5,819 nt of DNA from contig MNYV01000133.1 in assembly GCA_001873285.1 (NCBI GenBank), forward strand, positions 1 to 5,819, read 5' to 3'. Numbering within the stretch: the stretch's first letter is position 1; each line of letters opens with the position of its first letter. Origin of the DNA: Nitrospirae bacterium CG2_30_53_67 (GTDB lineage: Bacteria; CG2-30-53-67). Positions 1 to 5,750 of the stretch are shown in pieces. A program made the position numbers and the translations under genes. The notes under the pieces are model-generated. The model was not told the origin of the DNA. It saw nothing but the letters and a program-made list of their open reading frames with translations, and made no database searches.

Positions 1-209
1 GGTTCGAGGATTCAAGAACCTATAGAGATCCAGGGTTCAAGGATTCAAGTGGTTTTTTGATTTCTGTTACCTTTCAGTTTTTTCTATGCTTTTCACTTGG
101 ACCCTAAGCCCCTTAACCCCTCGGACCCTTGAGTTTTTAAAAAGCACTTCACTTGACCCCTGGAATCCTTGACCCCTTGACCCCTGATGTTTTCACCCAC
201 TCTTTTGGA
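1..209 (-). repeat. Octamer-array intergenic element, copy 1 (cut by the window edge)
   Basis: Non-coding DNA built from 8-bp units. Read on the minus strand, positions 52-1 give CCACT then units such as TGAATCCT and TGAACCCT. Read on the plus strand, two further arrays start with CACT at 92-95 and 147-151 and run in units such as TTGACCCC, TTAACCCC and TGGAATCC. Thus two half-elements face away from an AT-rich core at 53-91. The right end is ACCCACTCTTTTGGA (195-209). Positions 143-184 and 187-209 are exact reverse complements of 5541-5582 and 5466-5488, so this is the same element as the one at the right edge, inverted. The other end lies just outside the window. It has no ORF, and its function is unknown. 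Positions 210-256 hold nothing recognisable. Confidence 0.8.
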
Positions 210-256
210 GATGATCCTAAAATGCATTTTAATGGGTCTTCCCTCTCTTTTTTCCA

Positions 257-866: not shown

Positions 867-983
867 CCTAGGGTTTTCATAAGATTTGGTGTTTCCTTTT
901 TTAGTTTGCGTTTCAGTCTTTCACTTGACCCCTCGACCCCTCCACCCCTCGACCCCTTTTACCCACTAAATGATAGAAGAACC
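867..983 (+). repeat. Octamer-array intergenic element, copy 2 (half element)
   Basis: TTGCGTTTCAGT (906-917) is followed by CACTTGACCCC and three 8-bp units, TCGACCCC, TCCACCCC and TCGACCCC, and then by the end motif TTTTACCCACT (957-967) and AGAAGAACC (975-983). The same TTGCGTTTCAGT, CACT start, units and ACCCACT...AGAAGAACC end occur in the right-edge element (5648-5750). Only this half is recognisable. The mirrored half expected upstream is missing or decayed, and the left limit (CCTAGG at 867) is approximate. No convincing promoter for the TPR gene is visible between here and 1037. Confidence 0.7.
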
Positions 984-5447: not shown

Positions 5448-5465
5448 AATAAGCGTTCAAACCGT

Positions 5466-5750
5466 TCCAAAAGAGTGGGTGAAAACATAAGGGTTACGCT
5501 GCGCGTGCCCCGCTGTTCTCTATATTTGCCGGGGCATCTTGGGGTCAAGGGGTCAAGGATTCCAGGGGTCAAGTGAAGTGCTAAAATCATAAGGGGCCTA
5601 GGATTATAGGGTCCAAGGGTTCCAGTGTTTTTCTCTGAAGATTTTGCTTGCGTTTCAGTATCTCACTTGAACCCTTGACCCCTCGACCCCTGGAACCCTA
5701 TGGATCTTCAACCCTCGAACCCTTTTTACCCACTCGATGGGAGAAGAACC
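5466..5750 (+). repeat. Octamer-array intergenic element, copy 3 (complete)
   Basis: This complete copy begins TCCAAAAGAGTGGGT (AGTGGGT 5474-5480) and ends ACCCACT (5728-5734) plus AGAAGAACC (5742-5750). The first half is two arrays on the minus strand, units such as GGGGTCAA and GGATTCCA ending in GTG (5541-5575 and 5593-5628). A core follows with TTGCGTTTCAGT (5648-5659). The second half starts with CACTTGA and has plus-strand units such as TTGACCCC, TCGACCCC, TGGAACCC and TCGAACCC. The two halves mirror each other around the core. It starts 18 bp after the amrB stop. No ORF is convincing. Confidence 0.8.
5506..5536. other. GC hairpin in a 52-bp segment unique to copy 3
   Basis: TGCCCCG (5506-5512) pairs with CGGGGCA (5530-5536) over a 17-nt loop. 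It lies in 5489-5540, a stretch with no counterpart in copy 1, where only 2 nt (185-186) separate the same flanking blocks. It may be an insertion here or a deletion there. Being about 60 bp after amrB it might also serve as a terminator, though no T-run follows. Confidence 0.5.

Follow-up and report, generated by a model that had tools for sequence, protein, structure and literature searches.

The octamer-rich feature at the right edge of the window (i.e., the whole stretch of 5,819 nucleotides that was analysed, corresponding to an entire contig, C133, of the genome G000, 2.36 Mb in 183 contigs) is very probably a non-autonomous transposable element of the ISL3 family, that is, a MITE, carrying an older cargo of short-repeat arrays. 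The element is non-coding, with no transposase gene inside, and about a hundred copies of it are present in G000.

The contig starts and stops in or near repeat copies, in keeping with a fragmented assembly, and the genes located between the repeats are ordinary-looking ones, coding for SWIB-domain, TPR, FIST-domain, metallo-beta-lactamase-fold and Memo-like proteins. The SWIB/MDM2-domain protein (346-771; SWIB E 1.4e-26, plus a weak HC2 match) has an N-terminal lysine-alanine-proline-rich tail, similar to the histone H1 type and built of a 30-bp tandem repeat. A long imperfect palindrome (CCCTTCGGCAGGCTCAGGGTGA...GTGAGCTTGTCGAACCATGG) embedded at 2219-2330 looks like a further dispersed intergenic repeat, and similar strings exist in the genome G003. 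No match to Rfam was retrieved anywhere in the window. The three copies of the element and their parts are the following:

1-217, minus strand: left-edge MITE copy, inverted and truncated by the contig start; left end at 190-217
97-128 and 153-184: arrays of the left-edge copy, both after CAC; further G-rich units in 1-51
894-983, plus strand: middle copy, right half only; 5' limit approximate
Parts of the middle copy: core, then CAC at 922-924, array at 925-956, MITE right end at 957-983
5458-5485, plus strand: MITE left end CAAACCGTTCCAAAAGAGTGGGTGAAAA of the right-edge copy, first 11 bases degenerate in the alignment with the left end of the family, GGATCATCTCCAAAAGAGTGGGTGAAAA
5493-5543, plus strand: nested element B (GTTACGC..CGCGTG ... 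CATCTTGGG), shortened to 51 bp from the usual 72 or 119 bp
5541-5572, minus strand: four-unit octamer array, then GTG; G-rich strand on top, GGGGTCAA GGGGTCAA GGATTCCA GGGGTCAA
5591-5622, minus strand: second octamer array, then CAGTG; G-rich strand on top, AAGGGGCC TAGGATTA TAGGGTCC AAGGGTTC
5628-5663, plus strand: core spacer TTTTTCTCTGAAGATTTTGCTTGCGTTTCAGTATCT, with 81 core matches in the genome
5664-5722, plus strand: CAC anchor (5664-5666) and plus-strand octamers, with four good units at 5667-5698
5723-5750, minus strand: MITE right end TTTTTACCCACTCGATGGGAGAAGAACC, matching the ISL3 end GGGTCTTCTCCCAA..GAGTGGGTAAAA on the minus strand

The right-edge copy (5458-5750) is composed, in this order, of a degenerate left end containing AGTGGGT, minus-strand octamers, GTG/CAGTG, an AT-rich core with TTGCGTTTCAGT, CAC, in-phase plus-strand octamers (5667-5722), and TTTTTACCCACT...AGAACC, which closes the element at 5750. 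The four good units of the last array are followed by three others, in phase and partly degenerate; the first bases of the array at 5541-5572 overlap the match to the end of insert B, and the layout of the second array is common to most copies. This is the mirrored layout depicted in the earlier note, to which the shortened nested insert at 5493-5543 has to be added. All the three copies reported there are present, but they differ in their state, one being truncated, one reduced to its right half and one, at the right edge, complete, although its left end is degenerate and it has no clear target duplication itself.

The boundaries of the element are not AGTGGGT and ACCCACT, previously taken as its ends: the family ends are GGATCATCTCCAAAAGAGTGGGTGAAAA and GGTTCTTCTCCCATTTAGTGGGTAAAAA, located about 16 bp further out, where the sequence is still conserved. 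The alignment of 96 matches to the left end and 75 to the right end revealed that conservation reaches GGATCATCTCC.../...GGGAGAAGAACC and stops at A/T-rich flanks; in line with the interpretation in the earlier note, the dispersed copies have ends and a core in common. The 48 copies possessing both ends (42 in G000 and 6 in G001, a genome of the same genus) are bordered by an 8-bp A/T-rich duplication. Their flanking eight bases agree on average at 5.56/8 positions, versus 3.55 with shuffled flanks, and scanning lengths from 3 to 12 disclosed a peak at k=8 (z 10.9), with weak shoulders at 7 and 9 and no signal at 3-4 or 11-12 bp in the same paired copies. Exact duplications are represented by TAAAAAAT (L052), TTAATTTT (L065), GAAAATGT (L067) and AAATAAAA (L027). 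This repeat is a target-site duplication and identifies the element as transposed. Several copies, that at the right edge of the window included, exhibit a poor or absent duplication, as expected of old insertions or end deletions.

The length of the paired copies ranges from 151 to 426 bp, i.e., about 150-430 bp for the MITE. Genome-wide counts were obtained through searches, whereas the statistics on arrays and ends refer to 67 stretches plus the window, those from G000 having been picked because they bear copies. The end pattern has 100 matches in G000 and 14 in G001, versus 0 with the reversed pattern; six further genomes of the same phylum gave 0 matches. Searches of G000 with the 285-bp element also retrieved many partial matches, and no match to the element emerged from phage and plasmid records. 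The comparison of syntenic blocks of G000 and G001 (82.6% identity) revealed sites occupied in the former and element-free in the latter. Further sites are shared and differ by nested inserts. Some flanks are diverged at the element-free sites, and at one of these sites (L068/L089) a deletion between TTCTTCTC repeats could alternatively have occurred in G001. Identity among the near-full-length copies that match best is 94-98%, which suggests that part of the spread is fairly recent. Copies of the MITE occupy many contig ends of G000 (29 of 97 examined), so that they probably fragment the assembly of this genome.

The combination of 8-bp A/T-rich duplications and ends starting with GG.TC.TC pointed to the ISL3 family. 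The search for PF01610 in the G000 assembly (183 contigs, from which a source could be missing) did not retrieve any ISL3 transposase gene; G001 harbors one broken ISL3 transposase gene (PF01610 E 2.5e-38; NF033550 E 7.4e-60), with an end GGGTCTTCTCCCAAACGAGTGGGTA at a distance of about 300 bp, on a contig that corresponds to the Hainich groundwater assembly H32-bin143-1. The absence of the gene from the G000 assembly and its broken state in G001 count against the ISL3 reading, as no active source emerged. When named genomes were scanned with the G001 protein (79 loci), complete ISL3 elements, about 1370 bp long, were disclosed, having the same kind of ends as the MITE; for instance, L117 has ends GGGTCTTCTCCCAAGCGAGTGGATAAAA and GGCTCATCTCCAAAGTAAGTGGGTGATT and the duplication AAAAAGTT, and the protein encoded by L122 belongs to the ISL3 transposase family (NF033550, E 2.1e-80). 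Perfect 8-bp duplications surround 13 of the 22 ISL3 end pairs. The MITE retains both distinct ISL3 ends, the CCC type on the right and the CCAAA type on the left, paired as in L117 and L122, and it resembles the subgroup with ends GGGTCTTCTCCC..GAGTGGGT (L114, L117, L122, L152 and others) in both ends and in the 8-bp A/T-rich duplications. The shared ends, the duplication and the occurrence of these ends in insertion sequences of the ISL3 family thus lead to the assignment of the element to the ISL3-family MITEs. The complete elements differ from it in their length, in the presence of the transposase gene and in the lack of octamer arrays, of which the 79 loci contain a single weak two-unit match; for this reason, the idea that the arrays are subterminal binding sites of the ISL3 transposase was rejected.

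An ISL3 transposase provided in trans would recognise the two slightly different terminal inverted repeats and would move the MITE into A/T-rich intergenic DNA, generating the 8-bp duplication. As to its origin, ISL3 ends would have come to flank an older convergent pair of CAC-anchored four-unit arrays, which would then have been amplified as cargo within the genus.

A container of this kind is already known, since Microcystis aeruginosa harbors a published ISL3-type MITE (187 nt, with ends starting with GGCTCTTCG and 8-nt direct repeats; PMC11448079). The two elements share the non-coding nature, the many, mostly intergenic copies, the ISL3-like ends, the 8-bp duplications and the inferred mobilisation by ISL3. 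The interior is what distinguishes the element described here, being formed by convergent octamer arrays with small nested elements, within a length of about 150-430 bp.

The organization of the arrays follows strict rules. Each arm consists of CAC followed, on the C strand, by typically four TNGANNCC octamers, and the arms form pairs around a spacer with convergent G strands. Neighboring GAMYCC motifs are 8 bp apart in 545 cases, versus 5 at 7 bp and 8 at 9 bp (793 kb of G000), and a Markov control yielded only 7 neighbors at 8 bp. Moreover, 247 of the 285 arrays detected in G000 come after CAC; the mirrored architecture, the anchor and the 8-bp phase, as first perceived in the window, were confirmed. 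The arms are also detected by TRF as period-8 repeats. The variable units and the simple-looking short strings might evoke low-complexity sequence or a chance periodicity; this explanation has scarcely any probability left, given the common ends, the target duplications and the reversed-sequence controls, which returned 1, 0 and 0 arrays versus 285, 35 and 72 in the three groups.

In every group, arrays most often consist of four units (184/285, 23/35 and 38/72). Geometric slippage fits poorly, as 10 four-unit arrays would be expected in the mixed group, versus the 38 found; common descent of the copies also narrows the distribution of unit number. The T, G, C and C of the units hardly vary, in contrast to the other positions, and GG (CC on the opposite strand) is conserved at about 99%. 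All the 126 pairs are convergent (96, 12 and 18 by group), with 0 in the opposite orientation. The earlier note had asked whether the copies are strictly intergenic, and the arrays are mainly so: with genes called by simple ORF length only, 10%, 2% and 17% of the array bases fall within ORFs in the three groups, versus an ORF coverage of 71-85%. Most arrays sit between same-strand genes, and they are nearer to the ORF located 5' of the G-rich strand (160/190, 27/33 and 41/54).

These features recall the G-rich heptamers GGGAATC of Xanthomonas and GGGGA(C/T)T of Nostoc described by Rehm et al. in 2015, for which G-quadruplexes have been proposed and no function has been found (PMC4692102). Like them, the octamers are short G-rich units, preferably four in number and intergenic, seldom located between divergent genes, nearer to the gene 5' of the G strand, and arranged in convergent pairs, which are frequent in Xanthomonas (70 convergent cases in one genome; PMC4692102). 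The rules match those of the Xanthomonas repeats and, in part, those of Nostoc. The differences concern the unit, of 8 rather than 7 bases, the CAC anchor, the frequent loss of the third G, and the packaging in a transposable element, heptamer repeats being generally not found with mobile elements (PMC4692102). Since their 8-base unit is not GGGNATC/GGGGAYT, the arrays represent an analogue, not a member, of the heptamer class; they fall within a wider class of intergenic arrays that are convergent, G-rich and made of short units. No established name was found for the octamer arrays, and the literature on the unit strings gave only chance matches, judged by title among the matches listed. The absence of a named family, claimed in the earlier note, thus holds for the arrays and not for their container.

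The quadruplex idea can be checked on the octamers themselves. If the arrays were kept as simple repeats able to form G-quadruplexes, as proposed for the heptamers, the conservation of GG, the four modal units, the intergenic position and the gene-side preference shared with the heptamer repeats (PMC4692102) would be accounted for. Nevertheless, fewer arrays have four GGG tracts in a row than expected after shuffling the units (34 vs 44.4, sd 3.1, in G000; 4 vs 5.2 outside it), which argues against selection for three-tetrad quadruplexes and makes this explanation quite improbable.

It is also unlikely that the arms are maintained in order to form a hairpin between genes, in RNA or in single-stranded DNA, that would act as a terminator, attenuator or stabiliser. 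The RNA fold of the window copy (-78.5 kcal/mol, z -2.9), the broad complementarity of arms that follow one consensus and their position, mostly between same-strand genes, are in agreement with a hairpin. However, good folding is expected of any inverted repeat, and the two arms of a pair are no better matched to each other than to arms taken from other pairs (0.782 vs 0.81 and 0.811 vs 0.822, with or without G-U), so that there is no covariation, which argues against a selected stem.

Arrays of this type are not restricted to the MITE, as at least 10 other genomes of several lineages, including other genera of the family, contain them without ISL3 ends. The strict anchored pattern matches 11 of the 386 sampled genomes, with one control match overall, and a family mate of the genome G194 contains 16 more matches. 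The layout in most arrays read elsewhere is (AAGGGTTC)n AAGTG, spacer, CAC (TTGAACCC)n T. Viral contigs gave 13 array-pattern stretches in 2.9 million, indicating that the arrays are not a viral feature. Two differing arrays, G005:C58 (L274) and G002:C60 (L286), occupy equivalent positions in a gene cluster syntenic between two genera of the family, which suggests either that the sites are old and shared or that arrays arrived repeatedly at one place. In G386, other convergent arrays are located inside or beside the octamer arrays (L239, L240, L241, L243), with units represented by AAAAATC heptamers or by ATAAGNN ending with ACAAGTG; a CAAGTG end may be common to several array types.

The most likely reading of the cargo, which is put forward tentatively, is that the octamer pair is itself mobile in a REPIN-like manner, i.e., an inverted doublet with its arms round a spacer, copied by some enzyme and spread by a putative factor reading the CAC anchor and the octamers. 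The ISL3 ends would then be a late addition in one genus, a view compatible with the existence of the ISL3 MITE there. REPINs are inverted REP doublets moved by RAYTs (PMC3116915), and the octamer pairs are similar to them in being inverted doublets round a spacer, extragenic and present in many copies. This reading is supported by the arms without ISL3 ends in members of the family and in other lineages, by the convergent orientation (126 to 0), by the core spacer of some G005 copies, which resembles that of the MITE, and by the anchor; the frequency of the latter in other genomes is partly selected, because the search used a CAC-anchored pattern, but CAC also precedes 15 of the 34 partner arms that the pattern had not selected. 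On the other hand, the spacers within G194 and G386 are mostly non-homologous between copies, no clear target duplication was seen on inspection at the outer ends of their arrays, and no trans-acting factor was found. When G005 and G003 were compared for the boundaries of array pairs outside the MITE, the flanks turned out to be strongly diverged. Unlike the palindromic REPs of REPINs, the octamer arms are tandem repeats and have no Y1/RAYT linkage: Y1 transposase genes were found in 17 of the 17 genomes checked, with and without arrays, and just 1 of 30 loci, in an array-dense genome, is adjacent to arrays. Being almost all devoid of arrays, the Y1 loci do not indicate a RAYT.

As a reason for the constant period, the earlier note suggested spacing on the DNA helix or repeated protein binding, either of which would be possible. 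A binding role, in which the arrays would be a tandem site for a host protein, the 8-bp spacing being kept for that protein, is a rather less probable alternative. The nearly fixed T, G, C and C, the fixed CAC anchor and the four units are compatible with it, but the fixed positions could equally come from common descent of the copies, and there is no candidate protein.

Two small elements are nested in the arrays. Element B (GTTACGCTTCGCGTG...GCCGTCTGCGACGGC...GGTATCTTGGG; 40 copies with both ends compared) is 72 bp long, or 119 bp with a further insert, and is located inside octamer units or at their margin, in a fixed phase, in the genus as well as in G002 and G004 (window 5493-5543, L031, L038, L051, L094, L285, L287 and L293). 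On one strand it shows GTAG followed by a hairpin, a REP-like arrangement. Element C is a 28-31-bp palindrome (CCCCGTTAGAG...CTCTAACGGGG), which in all the copies read within array-bearing stretches is inserted at the anchor TTCA|CTTGA and is flanked on either side by TTCA or the complement of TTCA (L311, L312, L314, L317, L320, L322-L324); at least two variants of it occupy two different anchors. It also exists outside arrays (L310, L313, L316, L318 and L321), as in one copy read from G000 (L321) and in those of G002. In L315, element C constitutes the entire spacer between two arms. The anchor may be a preferred insertion site of element C, co-copying with the MITE explaining part of the pattern.

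On the whole, it is conceivable, at the same tentative level as the REPIN-like reading, that convergent, CAC-anchored four-octamer pairs form a cross-lineage class of intergenic element with its own means of spread or maintenance, related in principle to the heptamer repeats; one such pair might have been captured and amplified by an ISL3 transposon, and tiny elements might insert specifically at the anchor or in the units. A puzzling repeat becomes a two-part, testable one, whose container has a named transposase family. The four-unit convergent arrays of Xanthomonas and Nostoc have an 8-base, fixed-anchor counterpart in several other bacterial lineages, and what is preserved in it is not a set of four intact G tracts, which speaks against quadruplexes being the general reason why such arrays exist.
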